A stretch of DNA of 64,000 nt from an uncultured Acinetobacter sp. (GTDB taxonomy: Bacteria; Pseudomonadota; Gammaproteobacteria; Pseudomonadales; Moraxellaceae). The DNA is taken from positions 1 through 64,000 of the forward strand of contig NZ_CANQLZ010000003.1 of the NCBI RefSeq assembly GCF_947624825.1. The letters run 5' to 3'. This document shows, piece by piece, positions 573-40,348 of the stretch; positions within the stretch are counted from its first letter, which is position 1; each line of letters opens with the position of its first letter. The notes beneath the pieces were generated by a model. It was not told where the DNA came from. It did not search any database and saw only the letters and a list, made by a program, of their open reading frames with translations. The position numbers were made by a program, and so were the translations under genes.

Positions 573-588
573 TGGCATAAGTTCTGCA
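573..588 (+). promoter_or_regulatory. Sigma-54 (-24/-12) promoter of atzF operon
   Basis: TGGCATAAGTTCTGCA has GG and GC at the exact spacing of the RpoN consensus TGGCAC-N5-TTGCA. There are mismatches at the sixth base and at the first T of the -12 box. It lies 40 bp before the atzF start. Three other units of the same pathway in this window have the same type of promoter, which supports it. Confidence 0.65.
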
Positions 589-602
589 TAATGGTATCCA
601 AA

Positions 603-614
603 CTTGTATACAAG
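603..614 (+). promoter_or_regulatory. Palindromic operator CTTGTATACAAG before atzF
   Basis: This perfect 12-bp palindrome sits between the sigma-54 promoter and the ribosome binding site (TAGGA). Its core TTGTATACAA resembles operators of FCD-type GntR regulators, and such a gene (6109-6810) ends this operon. A related half-site (TATACAA) lies near 564. I infer that the downstream GntR protein represses its own operon here. Confidence 0.55.
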
Positions 615-627
615 ATAGGATGCAACA

Positions 628-2451
628 ATGGGCAATAATAAAATGATGGGTTGGACAATTTCAGAATGGCATCATGCTTACCAACACCAAGACATTCAAC
701 TGGATGACTTATATCAATATGTCAGCCAATTTGATCAAAACGATCCAGCTTGGATTTCAATTGCATCCCGTGAAGTGCTCAGTGCACAAATCAATGCCTT
801 AAATGAAAAAGAGCATGCAAAGCAACTGCCACTTTATGGTATTCCTGTTGCGATTAAAGACAATATTGATGTTGCAGGTTTTGCAACCACGGCTGCATGT
901 AAAGTACTTACACAAGTTAAAGATCAAGATGCTTTTGTGATCTCACGTCTTAAACAAGCGGGTGCCATTATTGTGGGCAAGACCAATCTCGATCAGTTTG
1001 CGACAGGCCTGGTTGGCACACGTTCTCCATTTGGTACAGTCACTAATACCTTCAACCCAGACTATGTCAGCGGTGGTTCAAGTTCGGGGTCGGCCAGCGT
1101 AGTGGCGCGTGGCTTAGTGCCGATTGCTTTAGGTACCGATACAGCAGGTTCGGGACGTGTACCAGCAGGATTTAATAATATTGTTGGACTTAAGCCAAGC
1201 AAAGGACGTTTTTCCAATACAGGATTAATGCCGGCATGTAAAAGTATTGACTGTATTTCCATCTTTGCTTTGACTGCTATAGATGCAGAAATTGTCGGCA
1301 ATATTATGGAAGGCTACGATACACAGGACAGTTATTCACGTGTAAACCCACAAACAGCTCCTGCAAAATTCAGTCAAAGCTTAAACTTTGCTATTCCGGC
1401 CCAGTTAGAATTTTTTGCCGATGAACAATCAAAGACTGCTTATGAAAATGCATTACAACAACTCAAAGCCTTAGGTGCGACATTCACCCCAATTGATTTT
1501 TCCGCATTCTCTATTTTGGCAGCACAATTATACCAAGGCTCATGGGTGGCTGAACGTACAGCGGCAGTTACTGATTTATTAAAAACCAACCACCAAGATT
1601 TTGATCCAACTGTATTAGAAATCATCCAAAAAGGTCATCAGTATTCTGCAGTGGATGCTTATCAAGCAGAATATCTTAAACAAGATTTGGCGCGTTTTAT
1701 TCAAATGCAACTTGCTGACTTTGATGCGTTAATTGTTCCAACCTCACCCACAATTCACCGTATTGAAGATATGGTCACGGCGCCGATTGAAAACAATAGC
1801 CATTTTGGTACCTATACAAATTTTACCAATTTGGCAGATTTGAGTGCTTTAGCAGTACCAGCGGGTTTTCGTCGCGATGGCTTACCTTTTGGTATTACGT
1901 TAATTGCGCCGGCGTGGCATGACACAGCATTACTTGATTTTGCAAAAACATGGCAACAGCATACCAACTTACCCCTAGGTGCATTCAATAAAAAATTACC
2001 CCAGCAGGAGCACAGCCAAACGGTCTCGGCACATCATTTTCGAGTTGCTGTGGTCGGAGCACATTTAACCGGAATGCCCCTTAATTTCCAACTGACGACG
2101 CGTCATGCTGTGCATGTAGAAACCACACACACTTCGGCAGATTATGCTTTATATGCCTTACCAGGTACGGTACCACCGAAACCAGGTCTAGCACGTGTAG
2201 ATAAACATCAAGGACAGAAAATTGTTGTAGAACTTTGGGATATTCCAAAGGCACGTTTTGGTGAATTTGTGGCAGAAATTCCAACACCATTGGGTATGGG
2301 CAATGTAGAGCTCAGTGATGGACGTTGGGTTAAAGGTTTTATCTGTGAGCCCTATGGACTCAATGGTGCGACAGATATTAGTGCATTGGGTGGATGGCGT
2401 GCCTATATCCAACAACTCAATCACACTAAAAACAACGCGGCACTGGCTTAA
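628..2451 (+). CDS. atzF: Allophanate hydrolase (AtzF)
   Basis: This enzyme hydrolyses allophanate to two ammonia and two CO2 in the cytoplasm, the last step of urea carboxylase and guanidine breakdown. Residues about 25-450 form an amidase-signature domain with the Ser-cisSer-Lys elements: Lys77 in 'VAIKDNID', the 'GGSSSGSAS' loop near 149-155, and the nucleophile in 'DTAGSGR' near 175. Residues about 470-607 form the C-terminal domain typical of allophanate hydrolases ('GTVPPKPGL', 'CEPYGLNGA'). The length of 607 is normal for a stand-alone enzyme. TAGGA lies 7 nt before the ATG. It is followed after 51 bp by the urea carboxylase, and it is the only allophanate hydrolase in the window, so it probably serves both carboxylases. 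Confidence 0.95.
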   Translation: MGNNKMMGWTISEWHHAYQHQDIQLDDLYQYVSQFDQNDPAWISIASREVLSAQINALNEKEHAKQLPLYGIPVAIKDNIDVAGFATTAACKVLTQVKDQDAFVISRLKQAGAIIVGKTNLDQFATGLVGTRSPFGTVTNTFNPDYVSGGSSSGSASVVARGLVPIALGTDTAGSGRVPAGFNNIVGLKPSKGRFSNTGLMPACKSIDCISIFALTAIDAEIVGNIMEGYDTQDSYSRVNPQTAPAKFSQSLNFAIPAQLEFFADEQSKTAYENALQQLKALGATFTPIDFSAFSILAAQLYQGSWVAERTAAVTDLLKTNHQDFDPTVLEIIQKGHQYSAVDAYQAEYLKQDLARFIQMQLADFDALIVPTSPTIHRIEDMVTAPIENNSHFGTYTNFTNLADLSALAVPAGFRRDGLPFGITLIAPAWHDTALLDFAKTWQQHTNLPLGAFNKKLPQQEHSQTVSAHHFRVAVVGAHLTGMPLNFQLTTRHAVHVETTHTSADYALYALPGTVPPKPGLARVDKHQGQKIVVELWDIPKARFGEFVAEIPTPLGMGNVELSDGRWVKGFICEPYGLNGATDISALGGWRAYIQQLNHTKNNAALA

Positions 2452-2502
2452 AAAGTCTCAAAATTTAAACCTATAAAAATTGACAAAAATAAGAGGATGA
2501 CA

Positions 2503-5500
2503 ATGTTCACTACTGTTTTAATTGCAAACCGAGGCGAAATTGCTGTACGTGCGATCCGTACTTTGAAAAAAATGGGCATTACATCTGTTGCTGTCTATTC
2601 AGATACAGACCGCTATGCACAACATGTCTTAGATGCCGATCTTGCGGTGTCATTAGAGGGGATTAAACCCAGCGATACTTATTTAAGTATTGAAAAGCTG
2701 ATTGCAGCTGCTAAACACACGGGTGCACAAGCGATTTTCCCAGGCTATGGCTTCTTGTCGGAAAGTGCAGATTTTGCCCGTGCTTGTGAAGATAACCAGA
2801 TTGCCTTTATGGGACCTACAGCGCAACAAATCTTAGAATTTGGTTTAAAACATCGCGCACGTGAACTTGCAGCTGCAGCTGAGGTGCCAATGACACCGGG
2901 AACAGGCTTACTGCAAAGTTTAGAAGAGGCATTAGTGGCTGCTGATCAGATTGGTTATCCTATTATGCTCAAAAGTACTGCAGGCGGTGGCGGGATTGGC
3001 TTAACACGTTGTGATGATGCACAGGCATTGCATCTTGCTTATGAAAGCGTAAAGCGTATGGGAGAACAATTTTTTAAAGATTCAGGGGTTTTTTTAGAGC
3101 GCTTTATTGATCAAGCGCGTCATGTCGAGGTACAGATTTTCGGTGACGGTCAAGGACAAGTGGTCGCACTGGGTGAACGCGATTGTTCATTACAGCGTCG
3201 TAACCAAAAAGTTGTAGAGGAGACGCCAGCACCACATTTACCTGAAGCAACCCGACAAAAATTACATCAAGCTGCCGTGCAACTGGGGCAATTGGTCAAA
3301 TACCGTAGTGCAGGCACCGTTGAATTTATTTATGATGCAGCACGAGATGAGTTTTATTTCTTAGAGGTGAATACTCGATTACAGGTTGAGCATCCTGTCA
3401 CAGAAATGGTGACGGGCTTAGACCTGATTGAATGTATGTTAAAAGTTGCGGCAGGAGAGACACTTGATTGGGCATTTTTGGCTAATATTCAACCCAAAGG
3501 TGTGGCAATTGAAGTACGAATTTACGCTGAAGATCCAGTCAAAAATTTTCAACCCAGCCCCGGGATTTTAACCGATGTGTATTTCCCTAAAAATGTACGC
3601 GTTGATACATGGGTTAGTACAGGCACTGAGATTTCTCAATACTTCGATCCAATGATTGCTAAAATTATTGTGCATGCACAGAATCGTGAAGCAGCACTGA
3701 GCACATTAAAAACAGCACTGGCCGAAACTCGCCTCAATGGTATTAGTACCAATTTAGATTATGCATTAAGTGTAGTATCAGATTCACGCTTTGAAAATAT
3801 GCAGATTTGGACACGCATGTTGGATAATTTCAACTATATTCCGAACGTCATCGAGGTCATTCAAGCCGGTACACAAAGCTCAATCCAAGATTATCCAGGC
3901 CGTGTAGGATATTGGGATATTGGTGTACCACCGTCAGGTCCTATGGACGACTATGCATTTCAACTGGCGAATAAAATTGTGGGCAACGCACAAACTGCAG
4001 CCGGTTTTGAATTTACCTTAGAAGGACCTACGCTTAAATTTCATGCCCAAAGCATTATTGCTTTAACCGGAGCACCATGTTGTGTCAGCCTTGATGGCAC
4101 GGCTGTAGACTTTTGGCAACCGATTGAGGTGAAGGCTGGGCAAACCTTAAAAGTTGGTCAAGTTGAATCAGGCTGTCGTACCTATTTGGCGGTGCGAGAT
4201 GGTTTAAATGTTCCCGAATATTTAGGGAGCCGCTCTACTTTTGCTTTGGGTAATTTTGGTGGGCATGCCGGACGCGTTTTGCGTGCCGGTGACATGATCA
4301 AGATGGTGAATCCTGAGCTGCCAAGCGACGGCTTACCCTTGGCGATTGCTGAGCCTCAAGCACTTGCACAGGATTTAATTCCAACATATGGCAAAACCTG
4401 GGACATTGGGGTGTTATATGGGCCACACGGGGCACCAGACTTCTTTAAAGCTGAATACATCGAATATTTTTTCGCATCAACCTGGAAAGTCCATTTTAAC
4501 TCTAATCGTCTGGGGATTCGTTTAAGCGGACCTACGCCAAGCTGGGCACGTGAAAATGGCGGAGAAGCAGGTCTACATCCCTCTAATGTACATGATTGTG
4601 AGTATGCCATTGGTGCGATTAACTTTACTGGTGATTTTCCAGTGATTTTAGCCAAAGATGGTCCAAGTCTTGGTGGGTTTGTCTGTCCTGTAACCATTGC
4701 AAAAGCAGAGTTGTGGAAAATTGGACAACTCAAAGCTGACGATACCCTGCGTTTTTATCCAATGTCGATTGAGCAAGCCAATGCTTTAGAAATCGCGCAA
4801 AAGCAACGTATTGAGGATTTTTCTCAGGCTCCTCAAAGCATTAATAGCCAAGATCAAGCTGTTGTTGAAGCACAAAGTATTCTTGCAGTCAAAGCTGCTA
4901 CAGATCAAGCACCAAAAGCAGTATACCGTCAAGCAGGCGATAGCTATATCTTATTAGAGTATGGTGAAAATGTACTAGATTTAGCTCTACGTTTACGTGT
5001 GCATCGTTTAATGCAACTGATTGGTGAAGCCAAACCAGCAGGTATTTTAGAGTTATCGCCTGGTGTGCGCTCATTGCAAATTAAATATGATGGCTTATGC
5101 CTCCCTCAAAGGCAGTTAATTGAGTTTTTACTTGGTCTTGAACAACAACTGGGGGATTTAAGTGATCTTAAAATCCCATCTCGTATTATTCATCTGCCTA
5201 TGGCATTTGAAGATTCAGCAACTTTAGCTGCAGTCACACGTTATCAAGAAAGTGTCTGTGCCGAAGCGCCATGGTTACCTAATAATGTCGACTTTATCCA
5301 ACGTATCAATGGCCTAGACAATCGCCAACAGGTCAAAGATATTATTTTTGATGCCAACTATCTCATTTTAGGTTTGGGCGATGTGTATTTAACTGCACCT
5401 TGTGCCGTACCACTTGATCCTCGCCATCGTCTATTGAGCTCCAAATACAACCCTGCACGTACTTTTACCGCAGAAGGGACCGTGGGTATTGGTGGCATGT

Positions 5501-6105
5501 ACATGTGCATTTATGGTATGGATTCCCCAGGTGGCTATCAATTGATTGGCCGTACGCTACCTATTTGGAATAAATTTAAGAAGAACAAGCAATTTGGTGA
5601 TCAACAATGGTTTTTAAGATTCTTTGATCAAATTAAATATTATGAAGTCAGTGAAGCTGAATTGGATCAATTTCGTGCCGACTTTGCTCATGGATTAGCT
5701 GAAATTAAGATTGAAGAGACTGAGTTTGATTTTGCACAATATCAAGCTTTCTTAATTCAAGAACAAGACAGCATTGCAACGTTTAAAGCACAGCAACAGC
5801 GTGCATTTACAACAGAAGTGGCACGTTGGAAAGATCAATTTGATGCTCCTACTGAAATAGAGGTCGTACAAGATCATACCGACTATAGTCAATATGCAGC
5901 TTTAAATGCGTCTATGACCGGTAATATTTGGAAAATTTTGGTAGAGTCGGGGCAACGTGTTAAAAAAGGCGAGACCATTGCCATTATTGAAGCGATGAAA
6001 ATGGAATTACCTGTCTATGCTGATGAAGATGGCATTGTCAAAGCCATTATTTGCCGTGCTGGTCAAACAGTGCAAAGCGGTGAACCATTGGTTTATATGG
6101 AGTAA
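2503..6105 (+). CDS. uca: Urea carboxylase, paralogue 1
   Basis: This is a biotin-dependent enzyme that carboxylates urea to allophanate using ATP and bicarbonate. Residues 1-450 are biotin carboxylase with the ATP-grasp glycine loop 'STAGGGGIG'. The middle holds the KipA/KipI-like (AHS2 and AHS1) carboxyltransferase domains, and the C-terminus is a biotinyl domain with 'EAMKMEL' (biotinylated Lys near 1166). The ORF opens at 2497, but AAGAGG fits the ATG at 2503, which starts 'MFTTVLIANRGEI'. In the carboxyltransferase the protein reads 'GAINFTGD', where the riboswitch-linked paralogue at 21037 has 'GAIDFTGD'. The Asn form fits urea as substrate (inference). It is co-transcribed with atzF and stops 3 bp before gntR. 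Confidence 0.93.
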   Translation: MFTTVLIANRGEIAVRAIRTLKKMGITSVAVYSDTDRYAQHVLDADLAVSLEGIKPSDTYLSIEKLIAAAKHTGAQAIFPGYGFLSESADFARACEDNQIAFMGPTAQQILEFGLKHRARELAAAAEVPMTPGTGLLQSLEEALVAADQIGYPIMLKSTAGGGGIGLTRCDDAQALHLAYESVKRMGEQFFKDSGVFLERFIDQARHVEVQIFGDGQGQVVALGERDCSLQRRNQKVVEETPAPHLPEATRQKLHQAAVQLGQLVKYRSAGTVEFIYDAARDEFYFLEVNTRLQVEHPVTEMVTGLDLIECMLKVAAGETLDWAFLANIQPKGVAIEVRIYAEDPVKNFQPSPGILTDVYFPKNVRVDTWVSTGTEISQYFDPMIAKIIVHAQNREAALSTLKTALAETRLNGISTNLDYALSVVSDSRFENMQIWTRMLDNFNYIPNVIEVIQAGTQSSIQDYPGRVGYWDIGVPPSGPMDDYAFQLANKIVGNAQTAAGFEFTLEGPTLKFHAQSIIALTGAPCCVSLDGTAVDFWQPIEVKAGQTLKVGQVESGCRTYLAVRDGLNVPEYLGSRSTFALGNFGGHAGRVLRAGDMIKMVNPELPSDGLPLAIAEPQALAQDLIPTYGKTWDIGVLYGPHGAPDFFKAEYIEYFFASTWKVHFNSNRLGIRLSGPTPSWARENGGEAGLHPSNVHDCEYAIGAINFTGDFPVILAKDGPSLGGFVCPVTIAKAELWKIGQLKADDTLRFYPMSIEQANALEIAQKQRIEDFSQAPQSINSQDQAVVEAQSILAVKAATDQAPKAVYRQAGDSYILLEYGENVLDLALRLRVHRLMQLIGEAKPAGILELSPGVRSLQIKYDGLCLPQRQLIEFLLGLEQQLGDLSDLKIPSRIIHLPMAFEDSATLAAVTRYQESVCAEAPWLPNNVDFIQRINGLDNRQQVKDIIFDANYLILGLGDVYLTAPCAVPLDPRHRLLSSKYNPARTFTAEGTVGIGGMYMCIYGMDSPGGYQLIGRTLPIWNKFKKNKQFGDQQWFLRFFDQIKYYEVSEAELDQFRADFAHGLAEIKIEETEFDFAQYQAFLIQEQDSIATFKAQQQRAFTTEVARWKDQFDAPTEIEVVQDHTDYSQYAALNASMTGNIWKILVESGQRVKKGETIAIIEAMKMELPVYADEDGIVKAIICRAGQTVQSGEPLVYME

Positions 6106-6108
6106 ACC

Positions 6109-6810
6109 ATGAGCCTTCTACATTCACCGAAGGCATCAGCACGCAGCTCAGACAATTTGTCTGAGCTGGTGTTTGAAAAAATTAAAAACGATATTTTTGA
6201 TTTTCAATTGATGCCAGGACAATATTTTACTGAATCTGAAATTGCCCAAATCTATTCTGTAAGCCGAACACCCATACGCCAAGCCTTATACCGTTTACAA
6301 CAAGAAGGTTATGTGGATGTGCAGTTTAGACGCGGTTGGCAAGTTCGTCCTTTACATTTTAAGAGTTATGAAGAACGTTATGATCTTAGAATTTTATTTG
6401 AATGTCATGCCATTGAGCAACTTTGTAAAATACCACAACCTCAATTAAATCAATTGCTTTCTGAACTTACTACAATATGGTGTGTTGAGCCTGAGAATTA
6501 TATAGGTGATCTTAAGCTACTTGCACAGCAAGATGAAGCATTTCATAGTCAGTTGGTCATGTTAGCAGGCAATCAAGAAATGACCAAACTTCATCATGAG
6601 TTAAATGAAAAAATTCGTATGATTCGTCGCTTAGATTTCTCTAAAATCCATCGTATTGAAGCCACTTATGCACAACACCAAAATATACTCCGTTTAATTT
6701 TGGCAAAAGACCTAAAAGCAAGTATTCAAGCGTTAACTGGACATATTATGCAAAGCCGCAATGAGGTAAAAAAAATTACCCTAGAGATTTTAGCCTTAAG
6801 TGCTAATTAA
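6109..6810 (+). CDS. GntR-family (FCD) transcriptional regulator
   Basis: Residues about 15-80 form a winged helix-turn-helix with 'YSVSRTPIRQALYRL', the GntR recognition segment. The rest is an all-helical FCD ligand domain with spaced acidic and His residues (for example 'RYDLRILFE', 'QDEAFHSQL'), which in this family often bind a metal and a small acid. It starts 3 bp after the urea carboxylase stop and so belongs to the same transcript. Its likely role is local control of the urea/allophanate operon, with a ligand such as allophanate or a related compound. The palindrome at 603-614 is a natural target. The ligand is unknown. Confidence 0.88.
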   Translation: MSLLHSPKASARSSDNLSELVFEKIKNDIFDFQLMPGQYFTESEIAQIYSVSRTPIRQALYRLQQEGYVDVQFRRGWQVRPLHFKSYEERYDLRILFECHAIEQLCKIPQPQLNQLLSELTTIWCVEPENYIGDLKLLAQQDEAFHSQLVMLAGNQEMTKLHHELNEKIRMIRRLDFSKIHRIEATYAQHQNILRLILAKDLKASIQALTGHIMQSRNEVKKITLEILALSAN

Positions 6811-19367: not shown

Positions 19368-19390
19368 TTTTGGCGCATGCTGCGCCAAAA
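19368..19390. promoter_or_regulatory. Perfect 10-bp inverted repeat between otsB and the guanidine operon
   Basis: TTTTGGCGCA-TGC-TGCGCCAAAA is a perfect dyad 68 bp upstream of the sigma-54 promoter, in the position expected for an enhancer-binding activator. It has no U-run on either side, so it is not a terminator. It could equally control otsB. Its half-site is one base from the NtrC half-site TGCACCA, but the half-sites face outward, unlike NtrC operators. Confidence 0.55.
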
Positions 19391-19457
19391 TTGAACAAAA
19401 TATTTTTGAATTTGTGGTTTTTTAGTGTGATAAAAACAAAAAAAAGTAATACCAAAT

Positions 19458-19473
19458 TGGCACAGCCTTTGCA
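19458..19473 (+). promoter_or_regulatory. Sigma-54 (-24/-12) promoter of the guanidine operon
   Basis: TGGCACAGCCTTTGCA matches the RpoN consensus TGGCAC-N5-TTGCA at every consensus position. Transcription would start near 19485, just before the riboswitch. This implies activation by a nitrogen-responsive enhancer-binding protein such as NtrC (inference). Confidence 0.85.
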
Positions 19474-19493
19474 TCTACTCATACCATCATAAA

Positions 19494-19603
19494 GTGATCT
19501 AGGGTTCCGATTTATGTGAAATATCATAAAGGTCCGAGACCGAGAGTTCACGGCTTAAGTTTAAAGCTCAAGCTACACGGAGGGATAAAAGCCCGGGAGG
19601 TAA
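19494..19603 (+). promoter_or_regulatory. Guanidine-I (ykkC) riboswitch
   Basis: The conserved blocks of the class are present in order: CTAGGGTTCCG, GGTCCGAGACCGAGAG, an ACGG segment, CACGGAGGGATAAAAGCC and CCGGGAGG. The class binds guanidinium and turns genes on. It lies between the sigma-54 start site and the first carboxyguanidine deiminase gene, leaving about 25 nt before the start codon. No classical U-run terminator is obvious after it, so control may be on translation or on a short alternative hairpin. Confidence 0.93.
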
Positions 19604-19628: not shown

Positions 19629-20366
19629 ATGAGCACAATAAACTATCACGAAGATCACGTCCTCTGGACTGAACATTTACCGGGTGGACATCACTGGTCA
19701 GCACGTATTCAGCGTGGCGCAGTACTACAACTCAAGTCCTTAGGTCAAAATGCCAATGTGGCGCTGTACTGTGTAAACAGTGAAGATAAATTCGAACGCT
19801 ACAACATGCCAGACAGCTTAAAAGGGCAACATACGGCATTTTTAAGTACAGGGCATATCCTTGCATCTGATCTTGGTCGAGCGATGGTTTCCATTGTCAA
19901 AGATGACCACGGTTGGAATGATGCATTCTGCGCACCAAGCACCGTACAACAAATCGAAAAACAATTTGGCACGCAAACCTTCCAAGATGCGCGTAATGAC
20001 ATGTACAGAAGTGGCAAAGACTCTTTACTGCTTGAGATGACCAAATTTGGCTTATCTGCAACGGATTTAAGCAGCACTTTAAATCTCTTTTCTAAAGTCC
20101 AACCAAATGACAATGGCAACTTGAGCTATGTGGTCTCTGACAATACCGATCAAGTGATTGAATTACGCTTTGAAATGGATTGCTTGGTGTTTTTATCATC
20201 TGCACCACATGCCTTAGATAACAGCACGGAATATGCACCTGCCGAAGTTCAGCTTTCACTGTTTAAAGCATTACCTTTATTTGATTACGATGTATGTCGT
20301 GATTCATGCCCGCAAAATCAGCGTGCATTCCAAAACAATAATCGCTACTACGCATTAAGCGCTTAA
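19629..20366 (+). CDS. cgdA: Carboxyguanidine deiminase subunit (UAAP1-like, DUF1989)
   Basis: This is one of the two DUF1989 proteins long called urea carboxylase-associated. The pair is now known to deiminate carboxyguanidine, the product of guanidine carboxylase, to allophanate and ammonia. It has 245 residues and opens with 'EDHVLWTEHLPGGHHWSARI'. A Cys-rich tail ('YDVCRDSCPQNQRA') is present. It is the first gene after the guanidine riboswitch, and GGGGCAG lies before the ATG. The next DUF1989 gene follows at once. I assigned the A/B letters by gene order only, so they may be reversed relative to published names. Confidence 0.85.
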   Translation: MSTINYHEDHVLWTEHLPGGHHWSARIQRGAVLQLKSLGQNANVALYCVNSEDKFERYNMPDSLKGQHTAFLSTGHILASDLGRAMVSIVKDDHGWNDAFCAPSTVQQIEKQFGTQTFQDARNDMYRSGKDSLLLEMTKFGLSATDLSSTLNLFSKVQPNDNGNLSYVVSDNTDQVIELRFEMDCLVFLSSAPHALDNSTEYAPAEVQLSLFKALPLFDYDVCRDSCPQNQRAFQNNNRYYALSA

Positions 20367-20381
20367 TTGGGGGGAATGATC

Positions 20382-21035
20382 ATGACAGCACTTGTTAAAT
20401 TAGAAAAATCGGTTTTAAGCGAAGTCTGTCCTGCTGGTGAAGCATGGATGTGCGAAGTCAAAAAAGGGCAGTATTTCCGTATTGTAGACTTAGAGGGCAA
20501 CCAAGCGGTTGATACGCTCTTTATCTCGGCACATAACCCTGAAGAGCGTTATAGCGCAACTGATACATTGGCAATCAATCAGCAGATTTATTTAGAAAAA
20601 GGCACAGCTTTATACACCAATTTTGGCAATAAAATTGCCACCATTCATGATGACAATTGTGGTCATCATGACACTTTAGGTGGTGCATGTTCATGTGAGA
20701 GCAACACCGTTCGTTATTCACATGACAAATTTCCAATGCACAGTTGTCGTAACAATTTCATGATTGCACTGTCACAACATCCAATTGCGAAAAAGCACGG
20801 TCTAAACGTGCGTCACATTGGTCCAAACATTAACTTCTTTATGAATGTGCCAGTTACAAGTGAAGGACATTTAAAGTTTGATGATGGTATTTCTGCACCA
20901 GGTAAATATGTGGAAATTAAAGCCGAGATGGATTTGATTGTGTTGATCTCCAACTGCCCACAGCTGAATAACCCATGTAATGCCTATAACCCAACTAAAA
21001 TTCAATTGATCATCCGTGAAGGCGAGGACGCATAA
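20382..21035 (+). CDS. cgdB: Carboxyguanidine deiminase subunit (UAAP2-like, DUF1989)
   Basis: This is the second DUF1989 subunit, probably forming a hetero-oligomer with the product of the preceding gene. Likely metal ligands are in 'DDNCGHHDTLGGACSCES', with 'MHSCRNNF' further on. The end of the domain is 'MDLIVLISNCPQLNNPC'. The track ORF starts at a TTG. GGGGGGA sits 7 nt before the ATG at 20382, which I take as the start and which gives 217 residues. It ends 1 bp before the carboxylase start, so translation is coupled. Confidence 0.86.
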   Translation: MTALVKLEKSVLSEVCPAGEAWMCEVKKGQYFRIVDLEGNQAVDTLFISAHNPEERYSATDTLAINQQIYLEKGTALYTNFGNKIATIHDDNCGHHDTLGGACSCESNTVRYSHDKFPMHSCRNNFMIALSQHPIAKKHGLNVRHIGPNINFFMNVPVTSEGHLKFDDGISAPGKYVEIKAEMDLIVLISNCPQLNNPCNAYNPTKIQLIIREGEDA

Positions 21036-21036
21036 C

Positions 21037-24000
21037 ATGTTCAATAAAGTATTAATCGCCAACCGTGGTGCAATTGCGTGTCGTGTTATTCGTACATTAA
21101 AAAAATTAGGTATCCAATCGGTTGCGGTGTATTCAGAAGCCGATCGTGATTCACTCCATGTGACTTTGGCCGATGAAGCGGTGTATATCGGTGAAGCACC
21201 AGCCAGTCAAAGCTATTTAAATGTCGATAAAATTTTAGAAGTGGCCAAACAAACCGGTGCGCAAGCGATCCATCCGGGTTATGGCTTCTTGTCTGAAAAT
21301 GCTGAATTCTGCGACTTGTGTGAATCACAGGGTATTGCTTTTATTGGGCCAAATTCAACACAAATGCGAGAGTTTGGCTTAAAGCACACGGCACGTGAAC
21401 TTGCGATTCAAGCCAATGTACCGTTACTTCCGGGTAGTCAGCTCTTAGCCGATGAAGTTGAAGCACTGTTTGAGGCCAATCGTATTGGCTATCCTGTGAT
21501 GCTGAAAAGTACGGCCGGTGGTGGTGGTATTGGAATGCGTTTGGTTTGGAACGAAACAGAGCTGAAAGATGCATACACAACGGTGTCTTATTTAGCGCAA
21601 GCCAACTTTAAAGATGCAGGTTTGTACCTCGAGAAATTCGTGGAAAATGCCCGTCACATCGAAGTGCAAGTTTTTGGTGATGGCCAAGGTCAAGTGATTG
21701 CACTGGGTGAGCGTGATTGTTCGGTACAACGTCGTAACCAAAAAGTGATTGAGGAAACCCCAGCACCGCATATCAATGATACGCAACGTGCTTATATCCA
21801 AAATGTTGCCATTCAACTGATGCAGTCGGTGAATTACCGTTCTGCCGGTACGGTTGAATTCGTGATGGATACCGACACACAAGAATTCTATTTCTTGGAA
21901 GTGAACACCCGTCTACAAGTCGAACATGGCGTGACCGAGCAAGTCTTTGGTGTGGATTTGGTGGAATGGATGGTGACATTGGCTAGCGGTGATTGGACTG
22001 CACCAATTGAAAAACTCGAATCCAAAGGTCATTCGATTCAAGTGCGTTTATACGCTGAAGATCCAATTAAAAACTTCCAACCGAGTGCAGGCTTACTGAC
22101 ACATGTTGAGTTTGATGCCAATGCCCGTACTGAAACATGGGTAGAAACAGGCTCAAATGTATCGTCATTCTATGACCCGATGATTGCTAAAATTATTGTG
22201 ACAGCAAACGATCGTGCTTCTGCCATTCAAGCCATGACGGATACTTTGGCGAAAACCTCAGTTGCAGGGATTGAAACCAATCTTGAATATCTACAAAACA
22301 TCGTGGATGGTGAAGTGTTTAAAGCAGGGACACAAACCACACGTTTCCTAAATACTTTTGAGTGGAAAACCCAAAAGGTTGAAGTTTTACAAGCCGGTAT
22401 TCAAACTGCTGTGCAAGACGTCACAGGTCGTTTGGGCTACTGGGATGTCGGTGTGCCACCATCAGGTGCGATTGATCCATTGTCTTTAAATGTCGCAAAC
22501 CAGTTACTTGGCAATGCCTATAACACTGCAGGGCTCGAATGTACGCTACAAGGTCCAACATTAAAATTCCATTGTGACAGCCAAATCGTGCTTGCCGGTG
22601 GCGATATGCTATCGACTTTGGATGGTGAAACTGTACCGATGTGGCAGACCGTGAATGTGCGTAAAGGTCAGGTGCTAAAATGTGGCAAAATCGCGACAGG
22701 TTGCCGTACCTATATTGGTATTAAAAGCGGTTTGAATGTGCCTGAATATCTCGGCTCACAAGCGACCTTTACCTTAGGTCAGTTTGGTGGTCATGCAGGG
22801 CGCAACTTATTGATTGGCGATATGCTTCCAATTACTGCATTTAGCTCCGATGAAGTGAAAACGCTTGCACCTGAACAAGTACCGTCATTTAGCCATGAAT
22901 GGGAAATTGCGGTGATGTACGGCCCACATGGTGCGCCTGATTTCTTTACCAAAAATGATATTGATACTTTCTTTGCCAATAGCTTTGAGATTCACTTTAA
23001 CTCAAGCCGTACTGGTATTCGTTTAATCGGGCCAAAACCTGAATGGGCACGTATCGACGGCGGTGAAGCAGGTCTGCATCCATCCAATATTCACGACAAT
23101 GCCTATGCCATTGGTGCGATTGACTTCACCGGTGATATGCCGATTATTCTTGGTCCAGATGGTCCAAGTTTGGGTGGCTTTGTCTGTCCTGCAGTGGTGA
23201 TTCACTCTGAACTGTGGAAGTTGGGTCAATTGAAAGCCGGTGACAAAGTTAAATTTGTGCCTGTGAGCTACACCCAAGCCAAAGTGCTCAATGAAAAATA
23301 TCATGCGCAACTAGAAGCATCAGATACACAAACTGTGGCATTTGATGAGTCGTTCTATCCTGAACTTGCAACCTTAAAAAATGCCGTGTTGCATGTATTA
23401 AAAGGTGAAAATGGTGCGCCTGATGTGGTGTACCGTCCTGCTGGCAACAACTACATGTTGGTGGAATATGGAGAGTTGGTGCTTGATCTAAACTTACGTT
23501 TCCGTATTCATGCACTGATGCAATGGGTTCAAAAGCAAAATATTCAGGGCATTATCGACCTAACACCGGGTATTCGTTCTCTACAAATTCATTTTGATTC
23601 GATCAAGCTCGATCAATTGGATTTACTGCGCTTATTGCAAGTCGCTGAAGCTGAACTGCCTGATGTGACGCAAATGCAAGTGCCATCTCGTACTGTGTAT
23701 TTGCCACTCGCTTGGGAAGATTCACAAACCCAATTGGCAACCGAACGTTATATGCAAACTGTGCGAAGCGACGCACCATGGTGTCCTGATAATATTGAAT
23801 TTATCCGTCGTATTAATGGCTTAAAAGATAAGCAAGCCGTGAAAGACGTGGTGTATGACGCACGTTATTTGGTTATGGGTTTGGGCGATGTTTATCTCGG
23901 TGCGCCTGTCGCAACCCCACTTGATCCACGTCAGCGTTTAGTCACCACCAAATATAACCCTGCACGTACATGGACACCTGAGAATGCCGTGGGTATTGGT

Positions 24001-24642
24001 GGTGCATATATGTGTGTCTATGGTATGGAAGGTCCGTGCGGTTATCAGTTTGTGGGTCGTACTACGCAAATGTGGTCACGTTACCGCAAAAATGCTGACT
24101 TTGAGCAAGGCAAACCGTGGTTATTGCGCTTCTTTGACCAAATTAAGTTTTATGAAGTCTCTGAAACTGAACTCATGCACATGCGTGAGGATTTTAAAGC
24201 AGGTCGCTTAAAACTGCGTATTGAAGAAGGCGTGTTGAACTTAAAAGAGTACAACCACTTCTTAACTGAAAACCAAGCATCGATTTCTGCATTTAAATCT
24301 GTGCAACAAGCCAACTTTGATGCAGAACGTCGTCGCTGGCATGAGGCAGGACTTGCAGAATATGTGTCTGAAAGCTTAGATGCTTTAGATGATGGGGAAG
24401 GGATTGAAGTACCTGAAGGTGGTTGTGCAGTAGAATCGCATATGCCGGGTTCAATTTGGAAAATTGAATGTCAGTCAGGGGATATTGTGGAAGAAGGTAC
24501 AACTTTGGCAGTCATTGAAGCAATGAAAATTGAGATTCCCATTCTTGCGCCTGAACGTATGAAAGTTGAAGCGATTACCATTGAAAAAGGGCAAACCGTG
24601 AAAACAGGTCAGATATTGTTTACCTTGGCGCCAGTGGCCTAA
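21037..24642 (+). CDS. Guanidine carboxylase (urea carboxylase family), paralogue 2
   Basis: This biotin-dependent carboxylase is homologous over its whole length to the enzyme at 2503. It has a biotin carboxylase domain ('STAGGGGIGMRL'), KipA/KipI-like carboxyltransferase domains ('VGVPPSGAIDPLSLNVANQL') and a biotinyl domain with 'IEAMKIEIP'. It sits directly behind the guanidine riboswitch and the cgdAB genes. Family members in this setting prefer guanidine to urea. In the carboxyltransferase it has 'GAIDFTGD' where paralogue 1 has Asn, and an acidic residue would suit the guanidinium cation. The start at 21037 follows the cgdB stop. The first seven codons of the track ORF belong to cgdB in another frame. 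Confidence 0.9.
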   Translation: MFNKVLIANRGAIACRVIRTLKKLGIQSVAVYSEADRDSLHVTLADEAVYIGEAPASQSYLNVDKILEVAKQTGAQAIHPGYGFLSENAEFCDLCESQGIAFIGPNSTQMREFGLKHTARELAIQANVPLLPGSQLLADEVEALFEANRIGYPVMLKSTAGGGGIGMRLVWNETELKDAYTTVSYLAQANFKDAGLYLEKFVENARHIEVQVFGDGQGQVIALGERDCSVQRRNQKVIEETPAPHINDTQRAYIQNVAIQLMQSVNYRSAGTVEFVMDTDTQEFYFLEVNTRLQVEHGVTEQVFGVDLVEWMVTLASGDWTAPIEKLESKGHSIQVRLYAEDPIKNFQPSAGLLTHVEFDANARTETWVETGSNVSSFYDPMIAKIIVTANDRASAIQAMTDTLAKTSVAGIETNLEYLQNIVDGEVFKAGTQTTRFLNTFEWKTQKVEVLQAGIQTAVQDVTGRLGYWDVGVPPSGAIDPLSLNVANQLLGNAYNTAGLECTLQGPTLKFHCDSQIVLAGGDMLSTLDGETVPMWQTVNVRKGQVLKCGKIATGCRTYIGIKSGLNVPEYLGSQATFTLGQFGGHAGRNLLIGDMLPITAFSSDEVKTLAPEQVPSFSHEWEIAVMYGPHGAPDFFTKNDIDTFFANSFEIHFNSSRTGIRLIGPKPEWARIDGGEAGLHPSNIHDNAYAIGAIDFTGDMPIILGPDGPSLGGFVCPAVVIHSELWKLGQLKAGDKVKFVPVSYTQAKVLNEKYHAQLEASDTQTVAFDESFYPELATLKNAVLHVLKGENGAPDVVYRPAGNNYMLVEYGELVLDLNLRFRIHALMQWVQKQNIQGIIDLTPGIRSLQIHFDSIKLDQLDLLRLLQVAEAELPDVTQMQVPSRTVYLPLAWEDSQTQLATERYMQTVRSDAPWCPDNIEFIRRINGLKDKQAVKDVVYDARYLVMGLGDVYLGAPVATPLDPRQRLVTTKYNPARTWTPENAVGIGGAYMCVYGMEGPCGYQFVGRTTQMWSRYRKNADFEQGKPWLLRFFDQIKFYEVSETELMHMREDFKAGRLKLRIEEGVLNLKEYNHFLTENQASISAFKSVQQANFDAERRRWHEAGLAEYVSESLDALDDGEGIEVPEGGCAVESHMPGSIWKIECQSGDIVEEGTTLAVIEAMKIEIPILAPERMKVEAITIEKGQTVKTGQILFTLAPVA

Positions 24643-24651
24643 AACACAATA

Positions 24652-24678
24652 AAAAAAGACCGCTTTGGCGGTCTTTTT
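24652..24678 (+). terminator. Terminator of the guanidine operon
   Basis: GACCGC-TTTG-GCGGTC with A-rich and TTTTT flanks forms a strong hairpin 10 bp after the carboxylase stop. The A-run before it could also make it act on reverse transcripts. Confidence 0.9.
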
Positions 24679-24679
24679 C

Positions 24680-32349: not shown

Positions 32350-32365
32350 TGGCACACTTTATGCA
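32350..32365 (+). promoter_or_regulatory. Sigma-54 (-24/-12) promoter of the RHH-binding-protein unit
   Basis: TGGCACACTTTATGCA has the exact -24 box and a GC at -12 with one mismatch (ATGC in place of TTGC). It lies 150 bp upstream of the RHH gene. An inverted repeat ends 17 bp upstream of it and could be an activator site. Confidence 0.7.
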
Positions 32366-32367
32366 AC

Positions 32368-32409
32368 CCTTTTAGTCATACAAATTATAAATTTCGTCAT
32401 ACTAAAAGG
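32368..32409 (+). promoter_or_regulatory. Leader operator with CCTTTTAGT/ACTAAAAGG and two TCATAC boxes
   Basis: A perfect 9-bp inverted repeat spaced by 24 bp starts 2 bp after the sigma-54 -12 box. Inside it, TCATAC occurs twice (32376 and 32397), 21 bp apart, about two helical turns. TCATAC is also the half-site of E. coli NikR, and the next gene is NikR-like, so autoregulation is plausible. Confidence 0.5.
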
Positions 32410-32516: not shown

Positions 32517-32996
32517 ATGATTCAGGTGCCTAAATCTAAACTTGCGCGCATTAGTATTACTTTGCCGCAAAGCACACTTATTGCGCTCGATGAAAAAATT
32601 GTCGATCCACATTACGAAAATCGCTCCCAAGCCATTGTGGAGATGATCCATCAGCAACTCGTAAGTAAAAATGATCAGGCCAATGCGGTTATGGTTGGTA
32701 CACTCACTGTACTGTATAGTATACAATCTAAAAATATTCATTATCAAATAATTGATTTACAACAACAATATTTAAAACAGATTATTAGTTCACAACATAT
32801 TCAACTTAATGACCAAAAGATCATGCAAGTGATGTTATTACAAGGCAAAAGTCATGATCTAAAATGCATCAGTCAAAGTCTGATTGCTCTAAAAGGCGTC
32901 ATTAAAGGGCATTTGGAATTAATGGATGCTGTTATGCCACCCTTGGCACAAAATGATCAGCTAAAGGAACCATATATATGCCAAGCCTTCAATTGA
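32517..32996 (+). CDS. NikR-like ribbon-helix-helix regulator lacking nickel ligands
   Basis: Residues about 8-50 form a ribbon-helix-helix DNA-binding domain ('LARISITLPQSTLIALDEKI', 'NRSQAIVEMI'). The rest follows the ACT-like C-terminal domain of NikR ('ISSQHIQLNDQKIMQVMLLQG', 'LKGVIKGHLELM'). In E. coli NikR the high-affinity nickel site uses His76, His87, His89 and Cys95. Here only the first His has a match and the 'HVHINHDDC' segment is shortened away. So this protein probably senses something else. It precedes the ABC binding-protein gene by 55 bp, behind a sigma-54 promoter, suggesting a regulator of nitrogen-compound uptake. Confidence 0.75.
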   Translation: MIQVPKSKLARISITLPQSTLIALDEKIVDPHYENRSQAIVEMIHQQLVSKNDQANAVMVGTLTVLYSIQSKNIHYQIIDLQQQYLKQIISSQHIQLNDQKIMQVMLLQGKSHDLKCISQSLIALKGVIKGHLELMDAVMPPLAQNDQLKEPYICQAFN

Positions 32997-33051: not shown

Positions 33052-34071
33052 ATGATGAAAATAACGAGCTTTATCTTATATGCAAGTTTGGGGCTGTTGA
33101 TTGGCTGTGACAAAACGGCACCTATTCCACAGCCAAGCCAACATACCAAGTTACAAACAACCATGCAGCCCATCAAAATTGGCTATAGCGATTGGCCAGG
33201 ATGGGTGGCATGGCAAGTGGCGATTGATAAAGGTTGGTTTAAAGAAGCAGGTTTAGAGGTTGAGTTTAAATGGTTTGATTATTCTGCTTCTATGAATGCA
33301 TTTACCGCAAATCAGCTCGACGCGATTTCAATTTCCAATGGTGATAATTTAGTAGTTGCTTCAGGCGGCACACGCGGCATGATGATTATGGCCACTGATT
33401 ACTCAGCAGGTAATGATGTCATTATTGCTAAATCAGGTGTGCATAGTATTGCTGATTTAAAAGGTAAAACGATTGCGGTTGAAAAAGGTCTCGTTGACCA
33501 TCACTTGCTCAATACTGCGCTGCAAGATGCAGGTATACAAGAGCATCAAGTCAAGCTGATTAATGCGGTTACTAACGAATTACCGCAAGTATTTGCCAGC
33601 CCACAAGTGGATGCCATTGCGGTATGGCAGCCTGTTGCCAATCAAGCTTTACACAGCGTAGCAGGTGCTCAGATTATTTATTCATCTCAAGATAAGCCTG
33701 GTCTGATCTATGACACTTTAACAGTCAATATGACGCATTTGGCACGTCATCCTGACGCTTGGAAAAAAATAATCCAAATTTGGGATCGTACCGTGCATTA
33801 CATTGAAGATCCAAAGACACGCCAAGATGCACTCAATATTATGGCCAAACGTGTGGGAGTAGATGCGGCACAATATCAACATTTGCTTGAAGGTACGCAT
33901 TTATTAGACATTCAAGCCAATCAAGCAGTATTTGAAAAATCCAAGCAATTTGATTCCATTTATGGCTCAAGTTATCACGTGAATCAGTTTAATTTAGACC
34001 AAGGCGTATATACTCACCAGCTTGATGTAGATGGTTTAATTTATCCACAATTATTACAATCACTGCGTTAA
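33052..34071 (+). CDS. ABC transporter substrate-binding lipoprotein, NMT1/TauA-like
   Basis: This periplasmic binding protein has a lipobox 'LLIGC' (Cys19) and the NMT1/TauA-like fold: 'IGYSDWPGWVAWQVAIDKGW', 'DAISISNGD', 'LKGKTIAVEKGLVDHHLL' and 'VDAIAVWQP'. Such proteins bind nitrate, taurine, pyrimidines or, in clusters with urea carboxylase genes, an unidentified nitrogen compound. The matching permease and ATPase genes are at 38481-40285 on the other strand, separated by an efflux operon. Guanidine or urea is a reasonable ligand guess but unproved. The start is Met1 or Met2. Confidence 0.83.
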   Translation: MMKITSFILYASLGLLIGCDKTAPIPQPSQHTKLQTTMQPIKIGYSDWPGWVAWQVAIDKGWFKEAGLEVEFKWFDYSASMNAFTANQLDAISISNGDNLVVASGGTRGMMIMATDYSAGNDVIIAKSGVHSIADLKGKTIAVEKGLVDHHLLNTALQDAGIQEHQVKLINAVTNELPQVFASPQVDAIAVWQPVANQALHSVAGAQIIYSSQDKPGLIYDTLTVNMTHLARHPDAWKKIIQIWDRTVHYIEDPKTRQDALNIMAKRVGVDAAQYQHLLEGTHLLDIQANQAVFEKSKQFDSIYGSSYHVNQFNLDQGVYTHQLDVDGLIYPQLLQSLR

Positions 34072-38480: not shown

Positions 38481-39344
38481 TCATTTGGTACTTACTTGTG
38501 TCATTCGTGGAATCTTAGGTAAATTGGCAAGTGCCGGATCAAGTGTTTCTTCAGTCACATGCACTAAAGCGTCAACGCGTTGTCTTAACTGCTTAAAGGC
38601 TTCGCTTTGCATGACCTCTGCATCACGCGGACGGGGTAAACCAACCTCAATAATTTCTTTAATTTCACCGGGATTGGCTTTGAGCGCCACAATACGATCT
38701 GCCAATAAAATCGCCTCATCCATATCATGCGTGACAAAAATAATCGTAATATCAATATTGGTCCATAAATCCATCAGATGCTTTTGCATTTTTTGGCGTG
38801 TATGTGGATCGAGTGCGCCAAAAGGTTCATCCATGAGTAAAATTTTTGGCTGATTGACCAAGGCACGCGCAATCGCAACCCGTTGTTTCATGCCGCCTGA
38901 CAATTGGTACGGGTACTGATTGGCATATTGTTCTAAACCAATAATATTGATCCACTCACGTGCTTGAGCCTCAGCCAAAGGATGGCTTTCACCTTTCATT
39001 AAGGGACCAAACATCACATTTTCTTTGACTGTTTTCCAAGGAAATAGCGTATAGCCTTGGAACACCATGCCACGTTCAGGACTTGGACCGGTCACCGTTT
39101 GACCATCGACCAATAACATACCACTGCTGTAGCCATCTAAACCTGCCACTACACGACTCAAGGTTGATTTGCCACAACCAGATGGACCAATGACACAAAT
39201 AAATTCACGTTTATGAATTTGTAAATTAATTTGATTTAAAATGGTGCGCTGAGTTTGACCTTGTTGGAAGACTTGGCTTAAATTTTTAGCTTCTAAAATG
39301 ACAGGACGTTGATAAATCTGCTCAAAGTAAACCGAGGTTGTCAT
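38481..39344 (-). CDS. ABC importer ATPase, TauB/SsuB-like
   Basis: This nucleotide-binding subunit has Walker A 'GPSGCGKST', 'VFQGYTLFPW' as Q-loop, signature 'LSGGMKQRVAIARAL', Walker B 'ILLMDEPFGALD' and 'VTHDMDEA'. It is the nitrate/taurine/sulfonate type. The track ORF has six extra codons. The ATG at 39344 overlaps the permease stop as ATGA and gives 'MTTSVYFEQIY'. With the permease gene and the binding lipoprotein at 33052 it would form one importer, probably of the type linked to urea carboxylase clusters. Confidence 0.9.
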   Translation of the reverse strand: MTTSVYFEQIYQRPVILEAKNLSQVFQQGQTQRTILNQINLQIHKREFICVIGPSGCGKSTLSRVVAGLDGYSSGMLLVDGQTVTGPSPERGMVFQGYTLFPWKTVKENVMFGPLMKGESHPLAEAQAREWINIIGLEQYANQYPYQLSGGMKQRVAIARALVNQPKILLMDEPFGALDPHTRQKMQKHLMDLWTNIDITIIFVTHDMDEAILLADRIVALKANPGEIKEIIEVGLPRPRDAEVMQSEAFKQLRQRVDALVHVTEETLDPALANLPKIPRMTQVSTK

Positions 39345-40285
39345 GCTTTTACTCCTTTCCATTTAAATAAACGTTGGCCTAATTTCATTAGTAACACATC
39401 ACACACCAAACCGATCATGCCAATAATCAAAATTGCGGCAAAGACATTGTCAAAATTTTGGTAGCGTGCTTGTTGGGTAATAAACCAAGTAATTCCTGAG
39501 GTACTGCCAATGAGTTCTGCCACAATTAAATAGGTCCATGCCCAACCCAATAGCACTCTTAAATCACGATAAATGTCGGGTAATGCAGCAGGAATCACCA
39601 CGTTAAATAGACTCTTTGTTTTACTGGTCCCTAAGGTAAAACCTGCTTCAATCAGGCTTTTATCAACAGTTTTTGTGGTGTTGGCAATAATGAGAATTTG
39701 TTGAAAAAGTGTACCAATCACAATAATGGCGATTTTAGGTGCATCATTAATACCCAAAATTGCCACTGCCAGTGCGCCAAAAGCAGGCGCAGGCAAATAA
39801 CGAAAAAACTCAACAAAAGGTTCAATCAATTGCGAGATAGTTTTAGAAAATCCACATAGAATGCCTAAAGGAATGCCAATCAATGATGAAATAAAGAACG
39901 CACTAAATACCAATTGAATACTGTGCCACAGACTTTGGTGAAACCAAGGTGCAGCTGCTTGTGTAGGCGGTGTGGTAAACGCCGTGACCAATGCAGTGGC
40001 AACCTCATGCGGGGCGGGTAAATAAATTGGATTGCTGAGTAGACCTTGGGGTGGTGTTAGGCCTTGATCAACTGCAAGTTGCGCTTGTTCAGTAAAGATA
40101 TGACGTTCAACCCGACTGTCGACCTGTAAAAATGTGCTACTACCTGCATCGGTGATATGTACCTGCGGATGCCAAACGGCTGGAATGTAGCTTATGGCAC
40201 ACCAAATTAAGATTGGAATTAAAAATGAGCCAAGGCCGAACAATATTTTTTGTTGAGGGCTGAGAGATTGTGTTACGTAGCTCAT
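39341..40285 (-). CDS. ABC importer permease, TauC/SsuC-like
   Basis: This 314-residue permease has the BPD_transp_1 fold. A first helix ('ILFGLGSFLIPILIWCAISY') is followed by a long periplasmic insert of about 80 residues, then five or so helices with the EAA loop 'IEAGFTLGTSKTKSLFNVVI'. The insert is larger than in TauC and is seen in permeases near urea carboxylase genes (from memory). It is first in its operon behind a sigma-54 promoter. Confidence 0.88.
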   Translation of the reverse strand: MSYVTQSLSPQQKILFGLGSFLIPILIWCAISYIPAVWHPQVHITDAGSSTFLQVDSRVERHIFTEQAQLAVDQGLTPPQGLLSNPIYLPAPHEVATALVTAFTTPPTQAAAPWFHQSLWHSIQLVFSAFFISSLIGIPLGILCGFSKTISQLIEPFVEFFRYLPAPAFGALAVAILGINDAPKIAIIVIGTLFQQILIIANTTKTVDKSLIEAGFTLGTSKTKSLFNVVIPAALPDIYRDLRVLLGWAWTYLIVAELIGSTSGITWFITQQARYQNFDNVFAAILIIGMIGLVCDVLLMKLGQRLFKWKGVKA

Positions 40286-40332
40286 AACGTTGCCTATTGA
40301 TCATACTTTTTATATAAAACGTAATACCAATA

Positions 40333-40348
40333 AGCAAAATGAGTGCCA
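40333..40348 (-). promoter_or_regulatory. Sigma-54 (-24/-12) promoter of the permease/ATPase operon
   Basis: On the reverse strand the sequence is TGGCACTCATTTTGCT, a full match to TGGCAC-N5-TTGCW. It lies 48 bp before the permease start and directly after the lipocalin terminator. A TCATAC box (40301) follows it in the leader, as in two other sigma-54 units here. Confidence 0.82.

Follow-up and report, generated by a model that had tools for sequence, protein, structure and literature searches.

A sigma-54 promoter upstream of Guanidine-I riboswitch operons in Acinetobacter and many other Pseudomonadota: a probable nitrogen-scavenging switch with NikR-like modulation in Acinetobacter

The guanidine operon and its genomic context

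The window, that is the whole stretch of 64,000 nt analysed here, derives from an Acinetobacter genome of 2.86 Mb. It includes a Guanidine-I riboswitch, located between a sigma-54 promoter and a set of guanidine degradation genes:

19458–19473, + strand: sigma-54 promoter TGGCACAGCCTTTGCA, with the -24 GG at 19459–19460 and the -12 GC at 19471–19472
19488–19601, + strand: Guanidine-I aptamer (RF00442), covariance model score 75.4 bits (gathering score 63)
19629–20366, + strand: cgdA-type carboxyguanidine deiminase subunit (UAAP1), TIGR03425 score 270.6 (cutoff 206)
20376–21035, + strand: cgdB-type carboxyguanidine deiminase subunit (UAAP2), TIGR03424 score 306 (cutoff 285)
21016–24642, + strand, likely start ATG at 21037: guanidine carboxylase of 1200 residues, TIGR02712 (urea/guanidine carboxylase) score 1852 (cutoff 1304)
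24652–24679, no strand assigned: hairpin at the operon end, with a terminator-like run of T residues that the scan assigned to the - strand

The RF00442 match is full length (model positions 1–107) and above the gathering score, and both the UAAP1 and UAAP2 models of CgdAB are above their cutoffs. Guanidine carboxylases are distinguished by an Asp at the position equivalent to residue 1330 of the K. lactis urea carboxylase (PMC11410670). The operon enzyme carries this Asp (D703 in AIDFTGD) while a urea carboxylase paralogue encoded elsewhere in the window carries Asn (N709 in AINFTGD), the position having been located by aligning the two proteins and not by the HMM itself. The Asp is also present in 74/74 riboswitch-linked carboxylases with a recognizable motif. 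An earlier note on this DNA had placed cgdA, cgdB and a guanidine carboxylase 3′ of the riboswitch, an assignment which the three protein models and the diagnostic Asp uphold. A terminator scan found no intrinsic terminator between the aptamer and the cgdA ATG, and the fold of the leader RNA is unexceptional when compared to shuffled sequences (z -1.45).

The gene for the last step of the pathway, allophanate hydrolysis, is not part of this operon. It is found at a distance, together with that of the urea carboxylase paralogue:

573–588, + strand: sigma-54-like promoter TGGCATAAGTTCTGCA (7/8) of the allophanate hydrolase operon
628–2451, + strand: allophanate hydrolase
2497–6105, + strand: urea carboxylase paralogue (Asn in AINFTGD)
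6109–6810: GntR/FCD regulator gene of the urea carboxylase operon

These three genes lie behind the sigma-54-like site and a palindrome, CTTGTATACAAG (603–614), and the region (573–6810) is possibly a second nitrogen-controlled urea operon. The window also contains a TPP riboswitch (RF00059, 46522–46640, 68.2 bits). A guanidine carboxylase with 95% identity is encoded by a 310-kb plasmid of Acinetobacter sp. NCu2D-2 (NZ_CP015595.1, 201576–205199), and the guanidine system may be mobile.

A full-consensus sigma-54 promoter precedes the riboswitch

The promoter TGGCACAGCCTTTGCA has no mismatch to TGGCACNNNNNTTGCW, with the -24 GG and the -12 GC ten bases apart in a consensus context. The predicted transcription start, counted 12 nt from the -12 element, is at about 19484, some 10 bases 5′ of the first aptamer stem. 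Since matches with two mismatches are no more frequent in the window than expected by chance (62 observed, 58.8 expected), the motif alone proves little, and it is position and conservation that settle the prediction. Genome-wide, the strict -24/-12 pattern identifies 28 sites compared to 2 with the reversed control, and strict intergenic sites precede nitrogen genes, encoding GltB-type, amino-acid binding and OHCU decarboxylase proteins and purine permeases, as well as a pilin gene.

A Guanidine-I riboswitch is present in 99/176 Acinetobacter genomes, and every one of the 99 loci includes a -24/-12 element at the full score of 8, a score reached by none of 792 control windows (11 of these score 6 or more). 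The distance from the -12 GC to the aptamer start is 12–17 nt in these loci, with a single exception. The full-consensus element described in the earlier note, which had also proposed a search of Acinetobacter genomes for such RpoN sites, is thereby confirmed. We regard as very unlikely the explanation that the match arose by chance or marks only a minor promoter, with a sigma-70 promoter driving an operon controlled purely by guanidine. TTGGCA does look like a -35 hexamer and loosely defined -24/-12 matches are frequent by chance, but no acceptable -10 follows TTGGCA and our promoter scan revealed no sigma-70-type site in the 190 nt 5′ of the aptamer and no good sigma-70 promoter anywhere from the divergent gene to the riboswitch. 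Moreover, every scored position of the sigma-54 element is kept throughout Acinetobacter and the element is enriched across the phylum.

Distribution of the arrangement in the Pseudomonadota

An even draw of 399 Pseudomonadota genomes provided 58 Guanidine-I loci. A -24/-12 element was found in 39/58 within 80 nt and in 45/58 within 110 nt, compared to 8/348 control windows (2%). When sorted by their downstream genes, the element precedes most degradation operons (30/36) and importer operons (15/18) but none of the four others. The coupling is not universal because 13/58 sampled loci are without a recognizable element. A scan of the GTDB collection identified at least 118 stretches in which a -24/-12 element is followed by the aptamer core; the matches listed are mostly from Rhizobiales, Azospirillum relatives, Acinetobacter and Solimonas. 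The gap between the two elements varies with the group: about 10–12 nt in one sample group, 14–15 nt in most Acinetobacter and 34–84 nt in Pseudomonas-order and Burkholderia-like loci. Thus, while no paper describing this exact layout was found in the open-access literature, in keeping with the earlier note, the layout is not peculiar to the locus since it is common in Pseudomonadota.

Guanidine-II loci of Pseudomonadota, examined in the same way, carry no -24/-12 element, whether stand-alone (0/15, mostly with SugE-type exporters) or operon-internal (0/15). The comparison of Guanidine-I (45/58) with stand-alone Guanidine-II (0/15) gives a Fisher exact value of 2.6e-8. Because the element is missing from Guanidine-II loci, the predicted sigma-54 promoter tracks guanidine assimilation and not guanidine sensing as such. 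In a number of loci (L335, L336, L342, L343, L347–L349, L353–L360), a Guanidine-II motif lies inside the Guanidine-I operon, mostly just 5′ of the carboxylase gene, and such an operon reads guanidine twice.

A NikR-type operator and a probable NikR-like regulon in Acinetobacter

A second conserved element abuts the promoter, and related dyads accompany two further operons in the window:

19424–19453, + strand: NikR-type operator AGTGTGAT-N14-GTAATACC (GTGTGA-N16-TAATAC), ending 4 nt before the -24 element
32350–32365, + strand: sigma-54-like promoter TGGCACACTTTATGCA (7/8) of the nikR-like operon
32374–32403, + strand: NikR-type operator AGTCATAC-N14-GTCATACT, just 3′ of the nikR-like operon promoter
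32517–32996, + strand: NikR-like regulator (ribbon-helix-helix and NikR_C-type domains)
33052–34071, + strand: ABC substrate-binding protein related to TIGR03427 (below cutoff), a probable guanidine importer component
38481–39362, - strand: ABC ATPase of the importer operon
39341–40285, - strand: ABC permease of the importer operon
40299–40328, - strand: NikR-type operator GGTATTAC-N14-GTATGATC, just 3′ of the importer operon promoter
40333–40348, - strand: perfect sigma-54 promoter TGGCACTCATTTTGCT of the ABC importer operon

Across Acinetobacter, 60/63 non-redundant loci share the dyad AGTATTAC-N14-GTAATACT, which ends at a fixed spacing 4 nt 5′ of TGGCA. The Acinetobacter consensus can be read as GTATTA-N16-TAATAC, the architecture of the NikR box (GTATGA-N16-TCATAC). 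Relatives carry the same dyad just 3′ of the sigma-54-type promoters of the nikR-like and ABC-transporter operons. The window copies at 32374 and 40299 are degenerate and their identification rests on position and on these relatives. As a mismatch-tolerant count of NikR-type boxes over the genome is not above the control (25 and 32 respectively), boxes were accepted only when beside sigma-54 promoters and matched in relatives.

The NikR-like protein was found in 94/175 Acinetobacter genomes, all 94 of which carry the riboswitch (Fisher 4e-44, uncorrected for phylogeny). Only five riboswitch genomes are without it, and of these at least G163 is likely to have been outside that draw. In one riboswitch genome without the gene (L224, G007), the distal half of the dyad is gone, and a second (L275, G025) has a fragmentary NikR-like gene and a degenerate dyad. 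In a genome without the riboswitch (L321, G135, at about 4360–4414) the dyad is kept together with a decayed promoter, TTGGCACAGCATTTGA, which has lost the -12 GC; this looks like a remnant.

Could the dyad beside the -24 element serve another regulator, for example a GntR-type protein? Each half, AGTATTACT, comes close to a palindrome (GTA-N-TAC), as do some GntR operators, and the urea carboxylase operon includes a GntR/FCD gene (6109–6810). This operon has, however, a different palindrome of its own, CTTGTATACAAG, and the spacing of the half sites fits the NikR box. In relatives, such a dyad is likewise placed 5′ of the nikR-like gene, and this gene is confined to riboswitch-bearing genomes. 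We therefore judge it unlikely that the dyad serves a regulator other than the NikR-like protein, such as a GntR-type protein, and retain the NikR-like protein as its presumed regulator.

The protein itself scores below the NCBIfam curated cutoffs for NikR (89.5, 62.5 and 52.9 against 105, 83 and 175 respectively). Orthologues from relatives match Pfam PF08753 (NikR_C) with 70.9 bits and the NikR structure PDB 2bj1 with an E value of 1.6e-21. The AlphaFold model has a mean pLDDT of 46, too low for use. In an alignment of 11 homologues (E. coli numbering), every sequence has Q in place of the nickel ligand H89 and I or V in place of C95, while position 76 (H76) is Q or H and position 87 (H87) is H or T. 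Because of the H89 and C95 replacements, the protein is probably not an ordinary nickel sensor. At the nikR-like and importer operons, the operators overlap the start region, which suggests repression by the NikR-like protein; unlike these two downstream dyads, that of the guanidine operon sits upstream of the -24 element. The importer and regulator operons have sigma-54 promoters and NikR-type operators but no riboswitch. In one relative (L313, 5967–8260), genes for a 2OG-Fe(II) oxygenase and an SMR-family exporter also belong to the dyad-bearing transporter operon, a set reminiscent of methylguanidine demethylation (PMC12508155).

NtrC as the candidate activator

This genome encodes RpoN, NtrB and NtrC, all of which pass curated cutoffs, and hence both sigma-54 and an AAA+ activator. 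Only two strong sigma-54 activators were found in the genome: NtrC, beside NtrB, and a PilR-like protein, beside a PilS-like kinase. The arrangement TGCAC-N7-GTGCA represents the textbook NtrC dyad spacing. Upstream of the promoters, it is present in 30/63 non-redundant Acinetobacter loci (2.3 in shuffles), 22/45 loci of the phylum sample (3.7 in shuffles) and 31/98 GTDB loci (9.2 in shuffles). Most other spacers lie closer to the shuffled counts, the chief departures being N8 in Acinetobacter (15 observed, 1.9 expected) and a certain surplus of N9 outside this genus. In the window, the following element is a candidate:

19368–19390, no strand assigned: perfect palindrome TTTTGGCGCATGCTGCGCCAAAA, with weak NtrC-like half sites

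The best NtrC-type match of the window, TGCGCCAAAATTGAACA (19381–19397), is weak (7/10) and lies beside this palindrome. The region is probably an activator site, for which the support in this genome is weak. A terminator as the main reading of the palindrome was rejected because it lies between divergent genes.

Further information comes from Burkholderia cenocepacia, where the cluster (L333, NZ_CP091014.1) includes a divergent pair of Guanidine-I leaders, which have a -24/-12 element apiece and share one NtrC-type dyad lying between them, and encodes an Asp-type carboxylase. In published RNA-seq data from another strain, H111, the matching carboxylase and importer genes are strongly reduced in an ntrC mutant, the urea carboxylase with a log2 value of -6.0 (PMC5491218). 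There, these genes are annotated as urea carboxylase and transporter and are interpreted as urea utilisation functions, and the passages searched mention neither a riboswitch nor guanidine. The strain examined here for sequence elements is not that used for RNA-seq; NtrC dependence has been measured in H111 for a layout that appears to be the same. The NtrC targets published there as urea genes are probably guanidine genes.

We consider it very unlikely that sigma-54 is correctly assigned but that the activator is not NtrC, with the PilR-like protein or a NikR-like role dominating. Such an explanation would account for the weak NtrC site in the window and for the strongest conserved upstream element being a NikR-type dyad. 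Yet all three sets of loci show an excess of NtrC-type dyads with spacing 7, and the NikR family is without the AAA+ domain required to open sigma-54 complexes. The PilR-like activator is expected to serve the pilin gene, which has its own sigma-54 site. The Burkholderia genes, moreover, fall in an ntrC mutant (PMC5491218). NtrC would thus be the activator in this genome also.

A model for control of the guanidine operon

The observed promoter, aptamer and genes, their conservation, the enrichment of NtrC-type dyads and the co-occurrence of the NikR-like protein can be combined in a model which we consider highly probable: a two-stage, probably AND-type, guanidine nitrogen-scavenging switch with NikR-like modulation in Acinetobacter. 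Nitrogen shortage, read by NtrBC, would activate NtrC, and sigma-54 RNA polymerase would then initiate about 12 nt past the -12 element, placing the 5′ end of the RNA almost at the Guanidine-I aptamer. Binding of guanidine by the nascent RNA would allow cgdA, cgdB and the guanidine carboxylase to be expressed, with allophanate hydrolase supplied from its separate operon. In Acinetobacter, the NikR-like regulator would bind the two-turn dyad abutting the -24 element of the guanidine operon as well as the dyads just 3′ of the promoters of its own and the ABC-importer operons, most likely as a repressor or modulator adding a pathway signal. The role of NtrC in this genome, the expression platform and the need for guanidine in Acinetobacter are inferred, as are what the NikR-like regulator senses and whether it represses.

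The earlier note had envisaged expression only when nitrogen limitation and free guanidine coincide. Dual control is strongly supported by the comparative evidence and by the published NtrC dependence of the matching Burkholderia operon, but is incomplete in that the NikR-type operator would add a third input in Acinetobacter. A strict need for both inputs is a prediction for Acinetobacter, and the importer and regulator operons of the regulon carry sigma-54 promoters and operators but no riboswitch. A more speculative extension, to which we give limited credence, is a gate with three inputs: NtrC and sigma-54, the guanidine riboswitch, and a NikR paralogue without a nickel site which senses an organic pathway signal. 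This signal may be, for example, guanidine or one of its breakdown products.

It is debatable whether bacteria encounter guanidine chiefly as a poison or as a nutrient, and the promoter provides an answer locus by locus: Guanidine-I assimilation operons are tied to nitrogen starvation and Guanidine-II exporter operons are not. The arrangement represents a widespread case in which a riboswitch gives substrate control beneath a sigma-54 promoter. With it, 'urea carboxylase' genes published for an NtrC regulon can be renamed as genes that probably serve guanidine use, and a NikR-family protein comes to light whose signal can be tested. If the three-input reading is true, this protein would have shifted from metal sensing to metabolite sensing.

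Comparison with known systems

Among the main texts of the open-access literature searched, no publication connected guanidine riboswitches to sigma-54, RpoN or NtrC, and none linked a NikR-like protein with guanidine genes. A parallel in logic is Klebsiella nasF, where general nitrogen control at a sigma-54 promoter is combined with substrate control in the leader RNA, as proposed here. In the nas system, the nitrate-binding protein NasR antiterminates, whereas in the guanidine operon the RNA itself senses the substrate. The cyanobacterial glutamine riboswitch under NtcA also has a nitrogen regulator at the promoter and a riboswitch in the leader, but differs in sigma factor, ligand and purpose. 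With the NikR nickel repressor, the NikR-like protein shares sequence family, the ribbon-helix-helix and NikR_C domains and a dyad of the same spacing. It differs in the replacement of two of four nickel ligands, in its sub-cutoff scores and in being linked to guanidine genes and not to nickel transport. In the NtrC regulon of B. cenocepacia H111, the matching carboxylase and importer cluster requires NtrC, as proposed here, but is read as urea utilisation (PMC5491218). Finally, the Guanidine-I (ykkC) operons of Raoultella, Vreelandella and Pseudomonas syringae share the aptamer family, CgdAB, the carboxylase, related importers and the position of the riboswitch at the operon start, and the passages on promoters and sigma factors in the guanidine review and the Vreelandella paper describe neither a sigma-54/NtrC layer nor a NikR-type operator (PMC12186494, PMC12508155). 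The components are each known and their combination is widespread and, apparently, an undescribed variant.
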